Assembly (NCBI RefSeq): GCF_964340395.1
Contig: NC_135558.1
Coordinates: forward strand, 11,714,501-11,778,500
Direction: 5' to 3'
Origin: Glandiceps talaboti
Taxonomy: Eukaryota; Hemichordata; Enteropneusta; Spengelidae
Length of the DNA stretch: 64,000 bases
In this document: positions 2,125 through 61,943 of the stretch, in pieces
How positions within the stretch are numbered: position 1 is the stretch's first letter
Layout of the letters: every line of letters begins with the position of its first letter
Notes under the pieces: model-generated
What the model saw: the letters and a program-made list of their open reading frames with translations, nothing else
Databases searched by the model: none
What the model was told of the DNA's origin: nothing
Translations under genes and position numbers: made by a program

Positions 2125-5100
2125 CTACAACATATCTAAAATTACATCTTTGAGTTTCAGATAATCACTCTTTGTGTTATAAACCTGGGCACTAATTCTA
2201 CACCATAGTCGGTCTTGTATATCTACAATGACACATACAACTTTCGACTTCTCATAAATGACCCCTTTCAGATGTTTGAGTGGTGCCTCTTTAGCTGCGA
2301 ATGTCAGAAACAATGCCTTACTAGTGGCAGGGAGGGCTACTACTCCCATGAAGGGCGCCCTCAAGTCATCAGGAATGGACAGACTCTCTGTTTTCCATTC
2401 TTGTACCAGCATGTTCATCGCCCACTGTAACAAGTCCTTGTTGTGTTTGGATATCTCTTCCTGTGCAATAAAAAGATCATGAAAAAGAGGAAACACATAA
2501 ATAAAGAGGAAAGAAACAACTTGCAAACACTGTTCATTGTGACTGAATGTATAGTTTGTGCATAGACCCTCCACCCAGATGGAGGGTCTATGGTTTGTGC
2601 AGTGTTATAACTGTGTTTGTTAGTTTGTTACCAATTATGGCATTGTATGTTCCTGTTTGGGGCAAACAATCCTTCTTGTTACTCCTATGAAATAATCTTA
2701 CTGGGATAATTTACACAGGATAGTTCTTTAAGTATATAAGCATTTGACTCCCAAGATGTCCAGTGAGGACTTACCCTCACTGGTGCAGTGTTAGTGGAGG
2801 AGGAAACTAAACACATAATAAAAACTTGTGTTCGGTAGAGTCAACTGAACGAATGGCATTCTTCTTACAACATGGTAAATTTAATCAAACCCAGACTAGG
2901 GCTTGAACCCTGGCTGTAGTGGTAAAAGGCAGTCGGCTTTAACCACACAGCCACCGACAACCCATCATATCACATCCTGCCATGTGCCCATTTATATAAA
3001 TATGTAAACAGATTTACGAGTGCACTTCGAACATCTTGCCATGCCCCTCCCCTCACCCGACACAAGTCAGTGAAATAGCTGCAGCAATCCAGAAAGGTGT
3101 CAACTTGAGTATGACATTGTCATTCTATCCACTTAACAATCACAAAAAGTATCATGATTGATTTTTGCCCGTCAAATCATAATAAAATTATTGAAAAAAA
3201 TACTTACAAAACCACCAATGTCATTATAGAATTCAATTGCAGCTGGAGCACATAGATAGGTTGATATATCACGAGTGCCTTGCATAAAAAACTGGTTCTG
3301 TAAACTCTGCTGATAACAATGTGAGGTCACCAAAGGTTTGACTTTCTTGTAATGTTTTGGATGAACCCATAGAAGTGCACAACCACGTGGAGCAAACGCC
3401 CATTTATGAAGATTACCTGAAAAAGGAAGAAAGATGTGATATGTCGTCAAACTACCAACATCGAGACAAGTGGTAACTTTGCATTTCTTTATTTTCGTGA
3501 ATGTGTAAAGTACAAACAGTACAATTACATAGATATTGAGTCTCCATGGTAACACAGCAAATGCAGAACACAGCCACAACCCCCTCAAACTATGTATAAA
3601 GTTGGCACATGATTCAGAATCATTTAAAATGGACTTTATTAGAAACGGTATCTGTAGATGGGGGTGTAGACAGATGATAGTTAAATTTAAGACATCCTAT
3701 CAAATCAAGAAAGTGTACCTACCCACGTAATAGTCAGCACCAAGTTGTTCAAGTTTAAGTTGTACTTGTCCTGGAGCGTGTGCACCATCTACAATGACTT
3801 GTACACCTTTACTATGACATACTACTATCAATTCTTTGATTGGCATTAACAATGCTGTACCACTTGTAATATGATCTATAATAGCAACTTTGATAGTTGG
3901 CTCTGATTCCAGGATATCCCGGTATTGTTGGACGATCTCTTCCTTGCCAAGTATCGGAAATTTGATTTCTAGACTCACAACATTTGGACCTGAAAATACA
4001 AATATTTTTATCCCAATATAAACAACGCATTACAAATTTGAAAAACAATAAGTGACATGTATGGTCTGACAAATCAATAAACATACCTCTTTTAATGCCA
4101 CTGTAATACTGAGCCCCAGGTTCATGTTTATAATCTCTTTTAGATAGAAATGTACTTGACCTTAAGTCAAGTTGAAAAAAAAGAAATTGAACTTTTGATG
4201 ATATATGACTGGGCGTACTTCCTGCAGTATTTATTCATCACATTATAACTACTATAAAAATCTCCCAAATTTAAATAGCTATCAAGGAGTTTTTTCAACA
4301 GCTGTTTCAGAGCTTATGGAACCTTTCCTATTTGGCGAGGGATATAATTTTCAAAACTGGATGCAGTAAGATTTTTTTTATAAAATAATTTTGGGGTAAT
4401 ATCTCTATTATTTGATTTTATACCTTTTATTTTTCTGATTTTCAAGCCATTTTAAAGACATTTTTCTCTAACTTTGTACAGTTTAGGGTCAGTAGGTAAA
4501 GATTAGAACCCCCCCCCCACTTTTTTTATTTGGATTTATCAAAAATAATTTCATTCTGACTTCATAAACTTGTCAAGAAACAATGAAAGCTGTCAACAGA
4601 CACACATGACCTTTGACCTGGAGATTAAATTTGCATATCTTTTGATCAAAACATGAAATATAAAATGACAGCCATCAGTAAATTGACAAAGTTAACACAA
4701 TACATGTAGTAACTTGAACTAACGATGTCAATTTGTGTGAAATGACACAGAGAAGGCAGAATGCCTATGGATATCATAGGAGGTCATTGTAGGCTGTATT
4801 TGTAGTATTTGTAGCAGGATCTGATATAAGTTCATGTATGTGTGGTGGGGGGGGGGGGCCTGTGGGTTGATGTTGGGAGTGGGGTTCAGATGGCACTATA
4901 TTTTATCATCTTTGTCTCATTGAAGGTCATCACAGATGAACTATGTTACCATAGAAACATGCCAGGCAATTTTGGGGCCACATACCAAGAGTAATGTTCA
5001 AGATGCACTTTCTATCATATCCCTAGTGCACTTTTACATGTTTGATGATGCAAGTTCACCCTCACCCCCCCCCCCCCCCCCCCCCATCACCTGGGCCTGG

Positions 5101-6364
5101 CAGTGAGCATGTTCAAGTTGTCACTCCAGCCTCAGTACTTTCAAAAAATTGTACCTTGAGAGTAGAACATTGTCTCAATGATAGCAGTTTCATGTAGCCA
5201 TCAAGTTTATAAAAACATTCACCGGGTCAGGTGCAGGCAAATCAATTTTCTAGGAGTCGGTCACGTTTTTCGAGGACTTAAATTGTCACGACTTTCCAGG
5301 ATCCTAAAGAACACTCTCCCTGGATTTTAGTTTAATTAGGTCACAAGTAAAAACAATATACCTACCATGTTCTGAGTTGTCACTAACATCAAGTGCGGTA
5401 TTTTTAATGGCAGGATATGTCAGACTACTGACTAACACACTGTCTCCTTTCCTCCATTTCATAGACTTCATTATACAGTTAATGCCTGTCACAAAATAAT
5501 AACAGAATGTGATTCAAAACTATTAAAACTCTTTTATTGTGAAGAAACTTCATATAATGTAAATAATCTGTTTGAATTCTGTCTAGCTGTATATATTTCT
5601 GGTGGATGCCATGGTTAATTTAGGTGACTTTAGAACACACCCCTTCAACTGCCAGCTGTCTGTATCTATGATGGATGAAACCATGTTGAAATAGAACACT
5701 TTTCTTTGATCCTGTACAGGAAGAAAACATTGCTCAAAAACGAAATGCTTTGAAACCACATTATTAAAGGAAATCTAAGGTATCATCTTATGGTGAAGTC
5801 TTTAATTCATTACCTTGTACTACACAACTTCTTCACCTTGCATGATGTATATATATCAGAGCAACCCTGCAGCCTGAGCAACTATGCACATAAATATCCT
5901 CGCACATAATTCTATATATTTCACCATAGAATATTTAATATGTGTTATTGTAGATATTTTCAGAGACTTATATTTACCATCACATACCTGAAGTTGCATT
6001 TTCAACAAATACAAGATGTTCAATATTAGCACCAACAAAATCAGCCGCACAGATCAAGGCTTCTTCATACAACTTAGAACCAGTAATTCTAACAAACTCA
6101 TCTGGACATCTCTCCACTTCCCTCAAAATTCTGTAAAAATTAGGTTTATTCACCAAACTCCAAGTTTCAATTTATATTATCTCCAAACCTCAGATTCTTT
6201 CTAGGTATTTAAGCATAATTTAACAGCACTGTCAATATGGAACAACATCATGATACTCTTGGTTCAAAAATATTACTGATATGCTGTCTTTTACTAGCCA
6301 TTAACTTTTGTGTTCTTTGTTTGTATGTATGTATGTATGTATGTATGTATGTATGTATGTATGT

Positions 6365-6404
<40 letters not shown>

Positions 6405-6726
6405 ATGTATGTATGTATGTATGTATGTATGTATGTATGTATGTATGTATGAGTTTGTTTGTTTATTAGTTTGTTTATTTCTATGAACATCACCGCACTT
6501 ACCTTACTCTTGTCATCATGACTGTTCTAGGTGTTGTACCATATGATCCATGATTACAGGGTGTAATGTCTTGACCAAATAAAAACTCCTGGTCGCGAAT
6601 TTCTTTGCCAAACTTTGGCTTCTCCTTCTTCGTATGTTTCCACAACCATGTGATTAACATTGTAACCAGTGATGTGGCTGCTATGGCAACCACAAAGGAT
6701 CTTGGTATCACCATTTTCCTATCCAT
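2125..6726 (-). CDS. Class-V PLP enzyme, isopenicillin N epimerase-like, membrane-anchored (copy A)
   Basis: Six coding exons on minus: 6503-6726, 5988-6130, 5366-5485, 3723-3989, 3208-3416, 2125-2460. All have GT-AG junctions, and the phases (2,1,1,1,0) join into 432 aa with no internal stop. The protein starts with a short basic head and a hydrophobic segment (about residues 10-28, VVAIAATS...ITWLW), then KHTKKEKPK, so it is probably a single-pass anchored enzyme. Class-V aminotransferase landmarks are seen: PCNHGSYGTTP near the N-terminus, VFVENATSG, VDGAHAPGQ (Asp230, expected to hold the pyridine nitrogen) and GNLHKW (Lys256, expected Schiff-base lysine). The family includes isopenicillin N epimerase, EgtE-like C-S lyases and cysteine desulfurases; the substrate of animal members is not known to me. 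The start is the first Met before the hydrophobic segment, in context CTCAATGG, as in copy B. Its partner copy B lies head-to-head. Compared with B it lacks three residues in the membrane segment. Confidence 0.92.
2561..2592. repeat. Perfect 13-bp hairpin
   Basis: Arms CATAGACCCTCCA (2561-2573) and its exact complement (2580-2592) with a 6-nt loop, in intron 5 of copy A. Confidence 0.9.
2755..2965 (-). mobile_element. tRNA-derived SINE
   Basis: On minus, a tRNA-like head has an A box (TGGCTGTGTGGTT, 2941-2953) and a B box (GGTTCAAGCCC, 2899-2909) with tRNA-like spacing, followed by an unrelated body toward 2755. The acceptor-stem halves do not pair, so it is a SINE rather than a tRNA gene. 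Boundaries are approximate. It lies in intron 5 of copy A and in the same orientation as that gene. Confidence 0.6.
4607..4619 (-). promoter_or_regulatory. Perfect DR1 motif
   Basis: AGGTCAAAGGTCA on minus, in intron 3 of copy A; copy B has a weaker GGGTCAAAGGTTA near 12910. Confidence 0.35.
5065..5085. repeat. Poly-C tract
   Basis: About 20 C in intron 3 of copy A; a similar G/C-run is at 4848-4858 and at 42594-42606. Confidence 0.9.
6322..6451. repeat. ATGT/GT compound microsatellite
   Basis: (TGTA)n interrupted by (GT)n in intron 1 of copy A. Long open frames over it on both strands are artefacts. Confidence 0.97.
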
Positions 6727-7885
6727 TGAGCTTCAATCTCTTGTAAGTTGTAATGAAAGTCCAGGTTTTCAATGGCCTTTTCTCAAATGGACCAACTCTG
6801 CAAGTGTAAATAAAAAAGATTGATTGATCGATTTGATTGATATTTGCCAAACCACAATAATATTTGAAAGACTATTACACACCAGTACGGCCCGGGTGGA
6901 CACTTACAATAGCTGTGTCTGAGCTACTAGTATGTACCCGCATATACTTTTGAATGCCACGTTTATTTTTATACTACGGCACCAACGATTTCAAAGCAAG
7001 GAGGATAGATTGCGTGAATACATGTAGGAATTGGCTTCGATAATCTATTCTGTAATGTCAAACCACAGTGTTGCTTATCACAACTCATATTTTTCGTAAA
7101 GGAATTTATAGATTATGAGTACCTTTGCGTCTTCAGGCAAAACACCCTTATCAGAAGAATGTTATCAATGTATCTGACCCTACTACTGTACTAAATGAAC
7201 TCTTCCAGACGCTCACTGAGTAAATAAAGTTCATTTGATTGTTCAATTGAGTACACGACAGTCTAGCTCGCTTACAGGTCATCACCGGGGGTCATCATAA
7301 CTCTTTCACTTTCAGCGATCGATGTTGACCTAGAGTCGGAACCTGGCCTGGTGGACCTAGGAAAGGGGTTTCGTCCGTATATGGTTATGATTAGCGACGA
7401 ATCAGACTAAATTGTACTGTGACAGAAACAGCAACTCGACACCGTCTGGCGTTTTCAAGGGTATGTACTCGTAAATTATGTCAGTACAGTGACCCGTTGA
7501 CATTGGGCCCATTGATTGGCTTTCACTCTAATCAGGACGTGGCTTTTCATTTATACGTACGTGACAAAGGTAAGGCACAACTTGTTGACAATGTTGACAA
7601 TATTGTACAGTTTCCAGAGTGAGGTTTGTGAGGCCGCAGATATTAAACCTTTGCATTTCAAATATCTTCATTTTTAATTCAAGTTTATAACAATGTACAG
7701 TCCTGCTTGCAGACGGACTACAGGACTCGATTCTGACAATGCCCCATATAGCTATAGTTTTAATATATCATGGATGTCTCGCTTTTTGTATTTCTATTGT
7801 ACTGGAATAATATATTTGTTTTGTAACCTTGTGCAGTCTTTTAGATGTGTTGAAAAAAGCTAGTGTTTTTGTTTTAGGGCAGTAA

Positions 7886-8278
7886 GGCCAAATAAAAAAA
7901 AGTTGTTCAAATGGTTCCGGTTGCCCGTTTTTCACGCCGACCCTAAACCTTTTTTTTACATATTCGAGAAAACTTGAAAAATAAGAAACTCGCGAAAATT
8001 GTTAAGTCTCGCAAGAAATAGTGCTTGCGAAAACTGACATCGACTGAAAAAAAAACAATATAAAACTGTTCTTCCAATCTGTAATGGCTGTACATCTGAT
8101 GAGAAGAAGCCAATAACACAGAGACCATATGGAAAACAATGGAAAAACATAACTACCTAAACTAGACACTCACATATGAAAAAAACATAAATTTAAAAAA
8201 ATAAAATAAAAAAATCTACCTACCCCACCTTTTTAAAAATTGAATGTAATCAGAACCAAACAATTTTTTTTTTATGCC
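7886..8278 (+). mobile_element. MITE family A, full copy 1, with TAA target duplication
   Basis: 393 bp, starting GGCCAAATAAAAAAAAGTTG and ending in the inverted equivalent (CAATTTTTTTTTTATGCC). It is flanked on both sides by TAA (7883-7885, 8279-8281). An inverted full copy is at 56783-57155. The 3-bp TWA duplication is typical of PIF/Harbinger elements. No transposase. Confidence 0.8.
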
Positions 8279-8710
8279 TAAGTAGGTAAAATCTACCTAA
8301 CAGTTCCAGGCCCCAGTCAACTAGCCAGGTTTCCCAAATAAAATTATGTATTATGGGATATCCAGTTTACCCATTTCCTACTTTGTTACCAGGGTTCCAA
8401 AACCGTTGCTAAGGAACAGCAGTGTAAATGATATAAAATTGTCAGAAAATGTTTCAGAAATCCTGATTTTGTGGACTGTTTTTTACACCAGGGATGATAT
8501 AGTCGTGAAAGCCATGGCCATGATACATCAAGGTCCAACAATCCTAATAGGATAATGGTCAAGTTCAGATTAGAATTAAAATTCAGGCATGGAAACCAGG
8601 TGTCTGGCAGAGCTATAGAAAAACTTGGTCTGGAACAAAAAAAATTATCCTTGTTAAATCCCTATCGTGCCACTGATAAGATAACACTCAGATGCTGCCA
8701 TGAACCTGGC

Positions 8711-9085
8711 CATAAATGTCATACCACAGGGTACAGGATGAATAATTCAAAGTTTCTCACAATTTTCCGGATTTCTAATATTATTTTCTCTATATTTCAA
8801 ATAAAGTTTTAAATATTGCCACCATAACTATAGTTTCCTCTCATTGTTTTTTTCCTATTTCCTACTTTATCACAGAGTTTACCAACTTTGCATTAATTAG
8901 CAGATTACTAATCCTAGAACAAACTCTTGAGTTATTTGCCCAATTAACACATTACAAAGTGAGTGTAAACATCTACTGATCCAACTAATGGAAGTACAAA
9001 CGTAGAGAAAATAATATTAGAAATCTGGAAAATCATGAGAACAAAAATTATTCATCCTGTCCCCTGTGGTCATACCTACATTGGC
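8711..9085. repeat. Large inverted repeat (arms about 90 bp)
   Basis: Left arm 8711-8803 and right arm about 8997-9085 share, in inverse orientation, CAGGATGAATAATT and GATTTCTAATATTATTTTCT. It forms a foldback in the divergent promoter region; some mismatches. Confidence 0.75.
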
Positions 9086-9959
9086 ATTGAGTACCTATTA
9101 GCCTAGTTTTGTAAGCGTATAGATGTAAATAACCAGGGTTAATGAATAATTGTTTGCCTACGTACATGTATTGTAGTGTAGTTGATTAGGGATGAATAGT
9201 TTCCACAGCTTTTCTGTAATACATTGACAGTAAAATGTAGTATCTTGGGTGGAGCTCCTCTTGTCTATGACACCCGCATACCATTAGACTAGTGGGAGTA
9301 CCAGTGGTCCACCCACGATGATATTTCACATTACATTTTGTGAACTATACTGTGTAGCTGTGTCTTTGTATTTTATTGTGGATGTGTATTGATGTAAAGT
9401 ACTTTGTAGCAATTCTAAATTTGAGACTGTGATAGGGTACAAGTCCAAGACCGACACCATCTGGTGTTTTCTATACAAGGTATGTATCATGTCAAAGGAC
9501 ACCCAGTGACCTTAAAGCTGCTAAGGACATAGTACACATGACTTTACAATTGACCTAGGAGTGGGACATGGTAAAGTAAGTATATACCTACTGTGGTTGT
9601 GTACATGATGAAGGAGGTAGGGGCTATCAGTTCCTGAGGCTGTGTAAGGGAAATTACAAAAGTTACGTGTATATTAAACATGAGAGTTGAATGCTACATT
9701 ATAGCCTCACTTAAAGGAGATCGTATGACACTCTGTATTTACTTATGTAAATATGCATAATTGCTGAGTAAAACTGAGTTGAAACTTGTTCCTCATTCAT
9801 TGGCCTGTGTAGGTCCTTGCCCTAGTGGACACACATTGCCTAAATTGTTTATTACCTTAAAATAAAACAAAATCATATAAAATTCCCTTTCAGTCATGAA
9901 TATTTCCTTTCGTTGACTGACTGACCAACTGAATTCTTATCACAGGAGATTGTAGCTCA

Positions 9960-12900
9960 ATGGATAAGAAAATGATGATGCCAAGACCCCTTATGGTTGC
10001 CATAGCAGCCACGTCAACATTGAGCATCCTCACGTTCCTTGTCACATGGCTGTGGAAAAGCACCAAGAAGGAGAAACCAAAGTTTGGCAAAGAAATCCGT
10101 GATGAGGAGTTTTTATTTGGTCAAGACATTATACCCTGTAATCATGGCTCCTTTGGTACAACACCTAGAACAGTCATGTTGACAAGAGTAAGGTAAGTCT
10201 GGTGACAATGTGATTAAAATCTAGAAGAATATGTCAGTGGTTTTCAATTTTTGTTGTTGTTCTGAGAGTGATCACCTTCTTACTAGGAAGATGAGTATTC
10301 TTGGAAAAATAAAAATGAAAATAAACGTCAATACACAAAGGACATAGAGGCCAGTAAAGGTATCAAGCATCGGATTTTAATCAGCTAGGTCTGCTCACAC
10401 ACAAGCAAACAAACAGATACACAAGCACACATACACATATATACACATACATGTATACATATATTTATGTGTATATATGTAACAAAATGGCCCATATTTG
10501 TATTTATCTTCTTCATATAATGGCCACCGTTGTGAAATTTTTCTCGGGCCAGACAATCATGCATCATTCCAAATTCAAGAGACACTGCTGCATGGCAATT
10601 AATGTTTGAAAAGATATATATAACTTACAGGGAATCAGAAAAATTCATCTAAAAAATCAGAAGTATAAAATGATTCTATTAAAAAGAAGCACTCAATCTG
10701 ATACAAGTTAATGGTAAATTTGAACCTGAATCAGAAAGATGAAATTCTGTGTTTGCCTACACCTGATCCGGCCTGACCTGGCCTTGCCTGCACCTGGCCT
10801 GGCCTGGCCTGACCTGACCTGACCTGGCTTTGACTGCACTTGACCCAGCCTGACCTGGCTCTGCCTACACCTGACCCGGTCTGACCTTGTTTGCCTACAC
10901 CTGACCTGACCTGACCTGGCTTTGCCTACACCTGATCTGACCTGGCTTCAGCTGCCCTGACTTTGTCTGCATTTTACTTGACCTGACCCGGCTTGACTTT
11001 GCTCGCACTTGACCTGACTTGAGCTGACCTGGCCTTGCCTGCGTTTTGTACTGACAATGTCACTATGCTATATTTATCAGAACCAAGTCCACAATATTTG
11101 AAGATTGTGAGATTGATAAAACATTTATGACCCATTTCACAGGATTTTGAGGGAAGTGGAAAGATGTCCGGATGAATTTTTCCGAAAGAATAGTTCTATG
11201 CTTTATGAGGAAGCCTTGATCTGTGTGGCTGATTTTGTCGGTGCCAATATTGAACATCTTGTATTTGTAGAAAATACAACTTCAGGTAATCTCAGTGTTA
11301 GTCAAGTTCCTGATGGACCGTATTCTGTACTACTATTTTTCATTTTTCATCCAAATGGCCACTTTAAATTGTATTTATGTTTGTATTATACATGTATATA
11401 TACTCAGAAGAATAGAAAACCCCCAAATATTGTGTTAATACAACCGAGGTGATTGATGAAGAATTTTGTGTGGATAGAGATATTTGTAAAGTCATAATTT
11501 GTGAATATATTTACATATGAAATATTCTATGGTTTTCACTGTAATCTGTATCATGCAGGCTAAGTTGTGGATGGTGTTCACATGGTAATCAATGTTTTAT
11601 CATTCATCGTCATCATCAGGTCGAGCTAGCTCAGTCACTTTTGACAATTTATATCCATAGATCTTTATGTTGCATGATTGCTGGTAGATTGCATCAATTT
11701 ATACCTGAGTCTTGTTCCAAAGTGTCAATGAAAGGTTTCCTAATAGTAATATGATTCCTGATCTTATGCCGTATTATGCAATATTCAGTGTTTTAGAAAT
11801 ATGTTTGTCATGCCCTTAAAAAAATTTAATTGGTTAATTTAATTCTTACTAGTTATGTATACTTTTATCCGCTATTATCCACCATATAGTTAGTAATTAA
11901 TAGAATGTGCTATTGCATCTACAAAGTTTCTTCACAATCAAAGAGTTTTAAAAGTTTTTGAATCACAGAATTCTGGTATTATTTTGTGACAGGAATTAAC
12001 TGTATAATGAAGTCTATGAAATGGAGGAAAGGAGACAGTGTGTTAGTCAGTAGTCTGACATATCCTGCCATTAAAAATACCGCACTTGATGTTAGTGACA
12101 ACTCAGAACATGGTAGGTATATTGTTTTTACTTGTGACCTAATTAAACTAAAATCCAGGGAGAGTGTTCTTTAGAACCCTGGAAAGTCGTGAAAATTTAA
12201 GTCCTGGAAAAATGTTGATTTGCCTGCACCTGACCCGGCCTGACCTGGCTTTGCCTACATCTGACCTGACCTGACTTTGCCTACACCTGACCTGGCCTGG
12301 CTTTGCCTACACCTGACCTGACCTGACCTGACCTGGCTTTGCCTACACCTGGCCTGATTTGATTTGATAGGTGAGAAATATATATTAACAAGCAGGTGTG
12401 TTGACAAATTAATTGTATTTCACTGGTCTACACTCCTGTAAAATGACCAAAGTTGATCTGAATAATCCTGGGAAAATTTATTTTAAAAAAACTCCTGGAA
12501 AGTTCTTGAATTTTATTTTGACTTTAAGTGTATGAACCATGAATAAAAAGAATGTAACTATTACTCCTGTCCCCTGTTGTTCCCATGGTAACATAACATT
12601 ATTAACCCAACCTCTACTGAGTCTCATATCATTATGATTATCCTGCTTGTTTCCATGGTAACAGTATCTATTGATGACCTCTGAGGACGGGCAATGACAA
12701 GAGACGAAATAATACAAATTTGATTATATGTAGTGATTCCAGCCCACTCCCCTTCTCCATCCCAATCCCACCTGCACCCCCTAAACATGGGATTATACAC
12801 TATACAGCAGATATACTACAAATATAGTAACCTTGGTGACAAACCCTAGACTTTGCCTTCAGTGTGTCATGTCACACAAATTGAGTTTTCAAAAGATAAA

Positions 12901-13800
12901 ATAGTGAGGGTCAAAGGTTATCTTAGACTGATATAGTTACCGGTAGCTCAAGTTACTACATGTTTTGTGTTAACTTTGTCAGTCTACTGATGGCTGTCTT
13001 TTTATATCTGATGTTTGGAGCAAAACAGTAAACCCAGGTCGTACAACTCATTTGATTCTGTCGACAACTTTCAGTGTGTTTTCAACCAGCTTATAAACCA
13101 GTATTTTCAGATTGGAATGATTTCTGGTATCATTAAAGACCAACAAATGGGATTACTGTTCATTCTATGTAACCTCTTTTGGGGGATAAACAGATATATG
13201 TTCTGGGGGGGGGGTTTTTATCAAAAGAAAAACATGTTTTATTTGTTATTTTATTTTTTTAGGTCCAAATGTTGTGAGTCTAGAAATCAAACTTCCGATA
13301 CTTGGCAAGGAAGAGATCGTCCAACAATACCGGGATATCCTGGAATCAGAGCCAACTATCAAAGTTGCTATTATAGATCATATTACAAGTGGTACAGCAT
13401 TGTTAATGCCAATCAAAGAATTGATAGTAGTATGTCATAGTAAAGGTGTACAAGTCATTGTAGATGGTGCACATGCTCCAGGACAAGTACAACTTAAACT
13501 TGAACAACTTGGTGCTGACTATTACGTAGGTAGGTACACTTTCTCGACTTGATAACATTTTTCAAATTTTGCTTCCAATGAAACTAGTATATGTGTGTTG
13601 TGTTCATTTGTCTTTTTAGTTGAGATAAGAGATGTCTGTTGGTTGAATGTGTGTATGGGGGTTAATACAAAATCAATTGGGCAGACAGAATTTTTGTGTA
13701 AAATCTTTTTGGTTTAGACTATTATATGGTAGAATTTAAAATAGTAATGATAGAGGCCTGGAAGTCTTGGACTAGCAGTGATAAACCCTTAGGGTTACCA

Positions 13801-13887
<87 letters not shown>

Positions 13888-13904
13888 TATATATACATAT
13901 ATAT

Positions 13905-13935
<31 letters not shown>

Positions 13936-15310
13936 CACATACACACATACACACACACATATATATATGGTGACATGAGAGTATCTCTGTATGCAGACTG
14001 GACTGTCTTCGTCTATATGTGGACTAATGTCTAACAGAAATTGGCGCCAAATTGAAATTTGTAACAACTTAAAGTTATCAGTAACACACAGTTGTGCAGA
14101 ATTGCTTTGATCTGACTTGACTAAATTTTTATAGAAAGACACAAATCTACTAAAGTACTCAACAGTCAAAACATTTTTGTAAGAACCAAATCCCAAATTT
14201 TCACAGAATCACTGATGTATGTCTTGTCAGTCCCCCTGGGGTGTAATGCAATTTTGGATTTGTTTCACCAAACATTTGACTCTGTTAGTGGAAATTTTCA
14301 TTTGATAAACACACTTCATGTAAAGCACTCTTACTTTGGTACTTAAAACATGTCTTTCGTCCTTTTTTCAGGCAATCTTCACAAATGGGTGTTTGCTCCC
14401 CGTGGTTGTGCACTTCTATGGGTTCATCCAAAACATTACAAGAAAGTCAAACCTTTGGTGACCTCACATTGTTATCAGCAGAGTTTACAGAACCAGTTTT
14501 TTATGCAAGGCACTCGTGATATATCAACCTATCTATGTGCTCCAGCTGCAATTGAATTCTATAACGACATTGGTGGTTTTGTAAGTATTTTTTTCAATAA
14601 ATTTATTGTGGTCATATCAAGGTAGAATGTGTCGTAGGGATCAATTTCCCTGAAAGTTCTTAAAATCTCCAAATTTTGTAGTGCAAACAAACACAAAGCT
14701 AATACAGAGTCCGTGTAAAAATTAATGATGATGAAAACCATTATATTGCAACAATTGGCAACAATGTAACAATTCCACACTTAGTATCATGATGTAAGCA
14801 TGACTATCAACCAATCGCAATTCAACAATTTACTTACAACAAATTGATCAATCACATGTGTACACAGTACACCAGTTAGCAACAAAGTAACAATCACAAA
14901 GTACCTTTCAATGTTCTGCTTTTATTTCTATTAATATTATGTTTTCTTTTACGTCTTTTCATTTATGAAAACAGGAAAAGATATCCAAATACAACAAGGA
15001 CTTGTTACAGTGGGCAATGAACATGCTGGTACAAGAATGGAAAACAGAGAGTCTGCCTATTCCAGACGACATGAGGGCGCCCTTCATGGGGTTAGTAGCT
15101 CTCCCTGCTACGAGTAAGAAAACATTTCTGACGACAGCAGCTGAAGGGGCAAGTCTGGACCATCTGATCAAAGCTATTTATGAGAAGTCTAAAGTTGTAT
15201 GTGTGATTTTAAATATACAAGACCGACTATGGTGTAGAATCAGTGTCCAGGTTTATAACACAAAGAGTGATTTTCTGAAAGCCAAAGATGTAATTTTTGA
15301 TATGCTGTAG
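9960..15310 (+). CDS. Class-V PLP enzyme, isopenicillin N epimerase-like, membrane-anchored (copy B)
   Basis: Six exons on plus: 9960-10192, 11143-11285, 11993-12112, 13263-13529, 14372-14580, 14975-15310; they sum to 1308 nt, 435 aa plus stop. Exon lengths equal those of copy A except exon 1, which is 9 nt longer. Residues 11-32 form a hydrophobic segment (LMVAIAATSTLSILTFLVTW), followed by the basic STKKEKPKFGK, suggesting a membrane anchor with the catalytic domain after it. Catalytic landmarks: CNHGSFG (60-66), VENTTSG (120-126), VDGAHAPGQ with Asp233 and His236, and NLHKW with Lys259 as the probable PLP lysine. All are present, so the enzyme is probably active. Reaction and substrate are unknown: epimerase, C-S lyase or desulfurase activity are family options. 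A possible 5' UTR splice acceptor (TTATCACAG) lies 14 nt before the ATG, as in copy A. Introns 1 and 3 carry CCTGACCTGG minisatellites. Confidence 0.94.
10745..11045. repeat. CCTGACCTGG minisatellite in intron 1 of copy B
   Basis: Degenerate 5- and 10-bp units (CCTGA, CCTGG) with TTTGCCTACACCTGA spacers. A second block lies at 12222-12360. Confidence 0.9.
12222..12360. repeat. CCTGACCTGG minisatellite in intron 3 of copy B
   Basis: Same unit as 10745-11045. Copy A has only the first unit (TGCCTGCACCTGACCCGG, minus, about 5222-5242) at the matching place. Confidence 0.9.
13801..13966. repeat. AT/GT/ACATAT compound microsatellite
   Basis: (AT)n-(GT)n-(ATACAT)n in intron 4 of copy B. Confidence 0.97.
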
Positions 15311-20090: not shown

Positions 20091-20284
20091 CAGAGCTTAA
20101 AGTGGATGAAACACTATGGTACTGTATTTTACAATGTCTTGAAAATTAAAAAAACAATATGATGTACTCCTTGAAGACAATACACTATATACAATAGAAA
20201 TGATATATCACACTGAAATATAGGGAGCATGCTATAGCATCCTTGAAATAAAAACACTCACTACTCAACACAGTACAATGAATT

Positions 20285-20835
20285 TACTGGGTATGGTTCA
20301 GTGTTTGCATTACAGTACAATTAATGGGTATGTCAATGTCTGCGTTACAGTACAATTAATGGGTATGTCAATGTCTGTGTTACAGTACAATTAATGGGTA
20401 TGTCGATGTCTGCGTTACAGTACAATTACTAGGTATGTCAATGTCTGTGTTACAGTACAATTAATGGGTATGTCAATATCTGTTACAGTACAATTTGTGG
20501 GCATGTCAATGCGTTACAGTACAATTTGTGGGTATGTCAATGTCTGCGTTACAGTACAATTAATGGGTATGTCAATGTCTGCGTTACAGTACAATTATTG
20601 GGTATATCAATGTCTGCGTTACAGTACAATTAATGGGTATGTCAATGTCTGCGTTACAGTACAATTAATGGGTATGTCAATGTCTGCGTTACAGTACAAT
20701 TAATGGGTATGTCAATGTCTTACAGTACAATTAATGGGTATGTCAATGTCTTACAGTACAATTAATGGGTATGTCAATGTCTGTGTTACAGTACAGATAA
20801 TGGGTATCATTGTTTGTGTTACAGTACATTTACTA
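20285..20835. repeat. 35-bp tandem array
   Basis: About 15 units of GTTACAGTACAATTAATGGG + TATGTCAATGTCTGC, a few shortened. No spacers, so not CRISPR. Confidence 0.95.
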
Positions 20836-21889
20836 TGTATAATAATATCTGCATTACAGTACACTTTCTGGGTATGGTAAAGTCTTACGTCAATCACTAA
20901 CGAACTACCCTGTATAGTGGTTATGGACTACCTATGGACTACCTAGCTTGGTGACATAAACAACATATTGTGACACGTGATCAATTTGCACCTTATATGG
21001 TATTAATTTGCTACATTGTATGTCATTCATTCTCAGACTCATTGCTACCCAGGTTTATAGCAAGTATTCCCCACTGTACAGAAATGATTATATAGTTTTG
21101 CAGGCAGTACTGAAAAGAGTGAAATTGTTTACTTTTTAGGTGCCAGTCTCATGAAATGTCAGTGGTTGATATTTTACCCCATTTGACTGTAAAAAATGCT
21201 AATTTCATTCTTCATTCATACAGTATATAATAAAGATGAAATCATTCTTGAAGGCAGATGAGTATCTTCCTCTATCCCTCAAATACTGTATTACACCAGT
21301 TGTGGAGTTCCAAAAGTGTAGGCTGTGTACTTCAGTAGCTCTACATACAATAGTTACAACCATGTTGTTACTTTACATGTTGACATAACATGAGGAAGGA
21401 AGAATCTTGAGAACCAATTCATTTGAAAATCAAAGTCACTTGAATCCTCCAAAACTTTGCCATATGAAAGCTGGTTCCTTTTGAAATCATCACAAAAATG
21501 TGGCTGTTCCCCACCTTCTTTACAAGGGAATCTTTAAACTATTATTTTCCTATCGCACTCACACATTGTTTGGTGGCCATTTTGGAGTATTATGTGGCAA
21601 ATTTTGAGACTGTTTTGTTTCTTTTTTCAAAAATATTACATGGTGACCCCTAATTTTTGTGCTTGATTTGAACTCAGAATTGGGTGGAGATTTCTTGAAC
21701 CAAGTATAAACAAAAGTTAGCGACTTTCATTTCTGAGGCAAGTACTACTTTAGTGCATCTTGTAGGTACAACGTACGTAACCCTGAACTAGTTTACTTCA
21801 CATAGCATTCTATTATTAACATATCATACCCTGTATGGTACATATACACAAAAACTGTTCACAATGATTGAATATTTCATTGCAATGTA

Positions 21890-61943
<40,054 letters not shown>

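Follow-up and report, generated by a model that had tools for sequence, protein, structure and literature searches.

Introduction

The described system closest to the one analysed here is the Amy-p/Amy-d pair of Drosophila (PMC3924832), which consists of linked inverted paralogs in a palindromic arrangement. A pair with the same arrangement, designated A and B and identified as class-V aminotransferase genes, is found in the hemichordate Glandiceps talaboti, within a stretch of 64,000 nucleotides (the window) at positions 11714501-11778500 of contig NC_135558.1, called C11 below, of a 590-Mb, 47-contig genome. The window has 35.6% G+C and zero N. The two six-exon genes form a mosaic of almost identical and strongly diverged exons, very probably the product of interlocus gene conversion that followed an old inverted duplication and affected three or more short exon-centred tracts. 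The pair is a clean example of an already known process, conversion between paralogs. Its exon-sized tracts can be placed to the base, and baseline exons, an unconverted island in intron 3 and older paralogs that reveal silent-site saturation serve as internal controls.

In the palindromic amylase genes, concerted evolution is described for the coding part only (PMC3924832), whereas A and B are homogenised mainly in three of six exons, the other three exons and the introns having diverged. The converted paralogs of Caenorhabditis (PMC3966223) include adjacent inverted pairs, as here; conversion is usually reported there for exons, and rapid intron divergence may impede it. Conversion in Caenorhabditis nevertheless often includes introns, whereas only one of our tracts (tract 1) runs far into an intron. 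The mammalian pairs BMP8A/B, DDX19A/B and TUBG1/2 (PMC2720389) each combine concerted with divergent exons, as A and B do, and BMP8A/B is also inverted. These pairs were, however, selected for having like introns between like exons, while the introns of A and B are unlike, and their GC content is mostly raised in the concerted parts (not significantly for one pair in rodents), while GC at third codon positions (GC3) is lower in the like exons of A and B. The gibbon L/M opsin genes (PMC3213168) show a mosaic of converted and unconverted sequence around exons 3-5, as here, but in reverse: the introns are mostly converted and the exons are held different by selection. Short conversion tracts are reported in a review (PMC3924818), with a mean of 200-300 bp in most of the follow-up experiments that it quotes. 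Our tracts are about 185-265 bp long, near that mean, and their exon-centred position agrees both with such short tracts and with introns acting as barriers (PMC3966223).

Exon-by-exon divergence

Copy A (2125-6726, minus strand) encodes 432 residues and copy B (9960-15310, plus strand) 435. Exon limits were placed by GT/AG sites, and splicing leaves an open frame in both copies. Exons 1-6 lie at 6503-6726, 5988-6130, 5366-5485, 3723-3989, 3208-3416 and 2125-2460 in A, and at 9960-10192, 11143-11285, 11993-12112, 13263-13529, 14372-14580 and 14975-15310 in B. The genes thus stand head to head as mirror images, with start codons about 3.2 kb apart.

Counted over whole aligned codons, the nucleotide differences in exons 1-6 are 36/225, 19/141, 1/120, 3/267, 5/210 and 48/333. 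An earlier reading of this DNA by a model, from the sequence only, had counted 1 of 120, about 3 of 267 and about 5 of 209 by eye in exons 3, 4 and 5, and our recount agrees, the count for exon 5 being 5/209 over the full exon. Its residue differences for exon 2 (7/47) and exon 6 (21/111) were also recovered, and the many changes and indel that it saw in exon 1 correspond, beyond the nucleotide differences just given, to 15/75 residues over the codons common to both copies and a 9-nucleotide indel.

The synonymous divergence (dS) in exons 1-6 is 0.42, 0.44, 0.04, 0.03, 0.10 and 0.34. Uniform silent divergence across the six exons is therefore rejected, the range being 0.03-0.10 in exons 3-5 against 0.34-0.44 elsewhere. 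Pooled values are dS 0.056 and dN (non-synonymous divergence) 0.004 for exons 3-5, and dS 0.383 and dN 0.115 for exons 1, 2 and 6. Among codons that specify the same amino acid in both copies, 7/197 carry a silent difference in exons 3-5 and 35/190 in exons 1, 2 and 6. In Fisher tests of exons 3-5 against the others, silent differences gave P = 6e-8 and replacement differences P = 2.5e-14. A model with two rates was better than one with a single rate (P = 1e-6), and six separate exon rates brought no gain over two (P = 0.51).

A GENECONV-type test, done as a permutation on the two sequences, found a best low-difference fragment with P = 5e-5 at each of four mismatch penalties; this value is the floor of 20,000 permutations, none of which equalled the observed fragment. 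With three of the penalties it begins in exon 3 and ends early in exon 6; with the fourth it begins in exon 3 and ends in exon 4.

Intron and edge sequence

The likeness around exon 3 is not limited to coding sequence. In intron 3, the opening 62 bp (A 5304-5365, B 12113-12174) do not differ at any position, as the sequence-only reading had noted, and together with 118 nucleotides of exon 3 they make up an identical run of 180 bp (A 5304-5483, B 11995-12174). After exon 3, 98/103 ungapped bases match in all, and the likeness resumes beyond an 18-bp gap to reach 144 bp in A. On the other side of the exon, the final 65-69 bp of intron 2 show about 90% likeness. The start of intron 5 matches at 28/30 bp. 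Little likeness is seen in the introns next to exons 1, 2 and 6: intron 1 matches at 11/13 bases at its start and 7/8 at its end, intron 2 at 3/3 where it follows exon 2, and intron 5 at 4/4 where it meets exon 6.

Further inside introns 3 and 4, the two copies are at baseline or cannot be aligned. In the interior of intron 3, A 4640-4724 (minus strand) is 88% identical to its counterpart B 12941-13025 (plus strand), within a longer island of 75% identity. This island is unconverted: 28/154 of its aligned sites are substituted, compared with 9/597 in exons 3-5 (P = 1.5e-13). Intron 4 can be aligned for no more than its first 40 bp, of which 7 mismatch, and beyond them there is no match.

As a separate observation, copy B carries related GACCTG-rich repeats at 10752-10948 in intron 1 and 12215-12357 in intron 3; the latter opens with 24 bases that copy A has in identical form.

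Mapping of the tracts

Tracts were called with a two-state hidden Markov model (HMM) on alignments of the exons with their flanks, the rates and the switch rate being set by hand. Tract 1 (A 5307-5492, minus strand; B 11986-12171, plus strand) covers exon 3 and its intron edges in 186 columns with 1 event, at a mean posterior of 0.95; in A, weaker likeness extends to 5222 and 5550. Tract 2 (A 3725-3988, minus; B 13264-13527, plus) covers exon 4 in 264 columns with 2 events (mean posterior 0.97). Tract 3 (A 3191-3385, minus; B 14403-14597, plus) has 195 columns with 1 event (mean posterior 0.96), beginning at about the 32nd base of exon 5 and taking in about 17 bp of intron 5. A possible weak tract 4 lies early in exon 6 (A 2384-2441, minus; B 14994-15051), with 58 columns, 1 event and a mean posterior of 0.80.

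A setting with the high rate raised to 0.25 covered tracts 2, 3 and 4 and exon 1, tract 1 being called at the first setting only. It gave A 3711-3989 with 3 events for tract 2, A 3189-3387 for tract 3 and A 2382-2444 for the weak tract 4, whose posterior rose to 0.94. Further low-divergence stretches that are weaker appear only at this rate, late in exon 6 (0.80) and at two places in exon 1 (0.72, 0.77); this mosaic below the level of the exon, tract 4 included, could represent further conversion or protein constraint.

The identical runs within tracts 1, 2 and 3 are 180, 181 and 164 bp long. At the all-site rate of exons 1, 2 and 6, the chances of such runs at a given place are 3.5e-13, 2.9e-13 and 4.4e-12, values that are too small because of coding constraint.

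The sequence-only reading had proposed gene conversion over exons 3-5. The conversion itself holds, given the uneven dS, the likeness in intron 3 and the lack of silent constraint among paralogs described below, but the single span does not. One conversion event across exons 3-5 would fit the adjacency of the three low-divergence exons and the single rate that suits all of them, but it would also have carried along the intron 3 island, intron 4 and the edge between exons 4 and 5. Introns 3 and 4 were not homogenised with the exons: the island is at baseline, and intron 4 already has 7/40 mismatches before alignment is lost. At the exon 4/5 edge, 5/33 coding sites differ, for which P = 4e-5 against the remainder of exons 3-5 is flattering, since the HMM itself chose the stretch. 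We therefore regard at least three short tracts as the correct description and a single block as very unlikely.

Search for further copies

A third near-identical copy was sought by DNA searches of the genome itself with the exon 3 region and with the exon 5 region, and each search returned two places only, namely A and B. These results also bear on whether the mosaic is an assembly artefact, in which exons 3-5 of both genes would have been assembled from reads of one copy or of another haplotype. A count of 47 contigs per 590 Mb is no guide to local accuracy, which leaves some room for this. Nevertheless it is highly improbable, because the tracts are embedded in introns that are unlike between the copies, 9 differences remain within exons 3-5, the exon 4/5 edge interrupts the likeness, and neither the exon 3 nor the exon 5 region has a third placement. 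Among viral contigs, a search with exons 4-5 gave no confirmed relative.

Silent constraint in paralogs

A protein search of the genome for the A/B family scored 27 candidates and listed 28 exon matches, of which 12 come from A and B (77-99% identity) and the other 16 have at most 64% identity. Three further members on the same contig were delineated: the older paralogs C (C11 3919320-3923220, minus strand) and E (C11 2976259-2986100, plus strand), both with six exons, and D (C11 3951574-3952652, plus strand), a two-exon piece comprising exons 5 and 6. Weak matches also occur on contig C4. Exon 4 of C ends (C11:3920576) with an apparent GC splice donor, giving a GC-AG intron.

At silent sites, the p-distance separating A and B from C and E is 0.81-0.84 for exons 3-5, compared with 0.75-0.81 for exons 1, 2 and 6 pooled. 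Taken singly, exons 3, 4 and 5 give 0.72-0.91, and the minimum falls outside the tracts, in exon 2 (0.53-0.66). Exons 3-5 thus have no special silent constraint, since their silent sites are saturated against C and E.

Selection alone, with a cofactor-binding core in exons 3-5 held by protein or nucleotide constraint and no conversion, is for this reason extremely unlikely. In its favour, the stretches DGAH and HKW, encoded by exons 4 and 5, align with a solved class-V enzyme, and the lysine of HKW is presumably the cofactor-binding residue. The non-synonymous p-distance (pN) of A and B to C is also lower in exons 3-5 (0.25) than in exons 1, 2 and 6 (0.39). However, this is a 1.6-fold difference, whereas the non-synonymous distance between A and B is 0.004 against 0.107, a contrast of about 25-fold. 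The better protein conservation of exons 3-5 therefore accounts for part of the contrast at replacement sites but leaves that at silent sites unexplained; a silent brake able to produce a seven-fold contrast should be visible against C and E. The 62 identical intron bases after exon 3 are likewise not accounted for, as the sequence-only reading had argued. Only a recent origin of strong silent constraint in the A/B pair could save selection alone from refutation.

Transfer through a spliced cDNA copy is the least probable route of all, close to negligible: tract 2 does keep close to the exon limits, but all introns are kept in both copies, and for tract 1, with its 62 identical intron bases, the route is refuted.

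Direction of copying

No clear direction emerged when 112 A/B differences were polarised with C and E, 75 being unresolved, 24 A-like and 13 B-like. In exon 6, the outgroups agree with A at 8 sites and with B at 7, and in exons 3-5 at 4 and 1, with 4 unresolved. At the 45 amino-acid differences, the outgroups are split or silent at 32; of the others, 6 have the outgroups on the side of A, 2 on that of B and 5 on neither side. The apparent lean to A as ancestral is too weak to use with outgroups so distant.

Proposed history

An old inverted, head-to-head duplication very probably gave rise to A and B (silent divergence is about 0.38 outside the tracts). The duplicated unit exceeded the length of the gene, because an island in the 3' flank past the stop codons is still alignable between the copies, with 138 identities, 21 mismatches and 37 gap columns. 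Purifying selection would have held the exons of the catalytic core alike while the introns gathered insertions, deletions and repeats. Later, stretches of about 185-265 bp would have been copied between the genes at least three times, in exons 3, 4 and 5, exon 3 being copied together with its intron edges. The copying probably occurred by repair of double-strand breaks in one of the inverted copies, with the other copy as template. Conversion needs likeness, and if only the exons were alike enough, the heterology of the introns would have limited repair to islands the size of an exon. The greater part of exon 6, together with exons 1 and 2, would have escaped, or was not lately converted. A consequence is that dating the duplication by exons 3-5, instead of exons 1, 2 and 6, would make it nearly seven times too young.

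Some observations weigh against this interpretation. Non-coding sequence lends little support at exons 4 and 5, where intron likeness is short: 10/13 bases match before exon 4 and 33/40 after it, and the match before exon 5 is 8 bp. The tract count is provisional, because the HMM rates were set by hand and weaker stretches occur in exons 6 and 1. The GC content also runs the wrong way for GC-biased conversion, which would raise GC3 in the converted part. Instead, GC3 in exons 3-5 is below that of exons 1, 2 and 6, both in A (0.286 against 0.395, P = 0.02) and in B (0.291 against 0.428, P = 0.004). The same comparison has the opposite sign in C (0.382 against 0.353) and shows hardly any difference in E (0.419 against 0.430). 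The low GC3 in the tracts would reflect either conversion without GC bias or an AT-rich donor stretch, and it leaves room for a source outside the A/B pair, although none was found.

More speculatively, repeated exon-wise conversion might renew the cofactor-binding core of inverted paralogs in this family over long times while the N-terminal and C-terminal parts diverge freely, an idea that we consider doubtful. If it were so, conversion limited by intron heterology could conceivably act as a module-wise brake on the divergence of the enzyme, a suggestion that is equally tentative. The C/D pair described next might then, with no greater assurance, be an older or independent case, with its patch in exon 6, outside the core.

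A second pair in the family

C and D are divergently oriented and about 28 kb apart. Exons 1-4 of D were not found in C11 3924001-3958000 with C as query. Silent differences between C and D are found in 24/44 codons of exon 5 and 14/37 of later exon 6, but in only 3/44 in codons 1-47 of exon 6. Codons 1-47 thus differ from the rest (38/81 in exon 5 and the remainder of exon 6) with P = 2.4e-6, the cut at codon 47 having been picked by eye. The likeness begins 44 alignment columns upstream, in intron 5, where 37 columns agree. Over the first 165 ungapped nucleotides of exon 6, 26 sites differ, because the likeness ends near codon 47. Short-patch exchange therefore seems to recur in the family.

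The enzyme family

Residues 1-321 of A match PF00266 (Aminotran_5) with 79 bits, against a cut-off of 21.5. The best sequence relatives of B in the PDB are the aminotransferase class V/cysteine desulfurase chains 9aza, 9azb and 8dl5 and the C-S lyase Egt2 (5uts), and the HKW of B is aligned with the HKW of 9aza. B falls below the curated cut-offs of all 25 NCBIfam models listed, the best being SufS (84 against 475.1), and no reaction is therefore assigned to the enzyme. Its hydrophobic N-terminal end, read by eye, is a possible membrane anchor.

Other repeats in the window

In the space that separates the two start codons, 8723-8792 and 9003-9070 form an inverted repeat (87%, spacer 210 bp), which may be a remnant of the axis of the inverted duplication or a mobile element. 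Tandem repeat arrays are found at 20284-20894, 24045-24340 and 28635-28924, the last of which is inside a long open frame with repeated peptide units (28354-29418, minus strand). Dispersed repeats pair 7927-8274 with 56780-57105 (inverted), 30123-30372 with 55321-55578 (direct) and 30301-30411 with 55709-55819 (inverted), and these pairs are possibly mobile elements.

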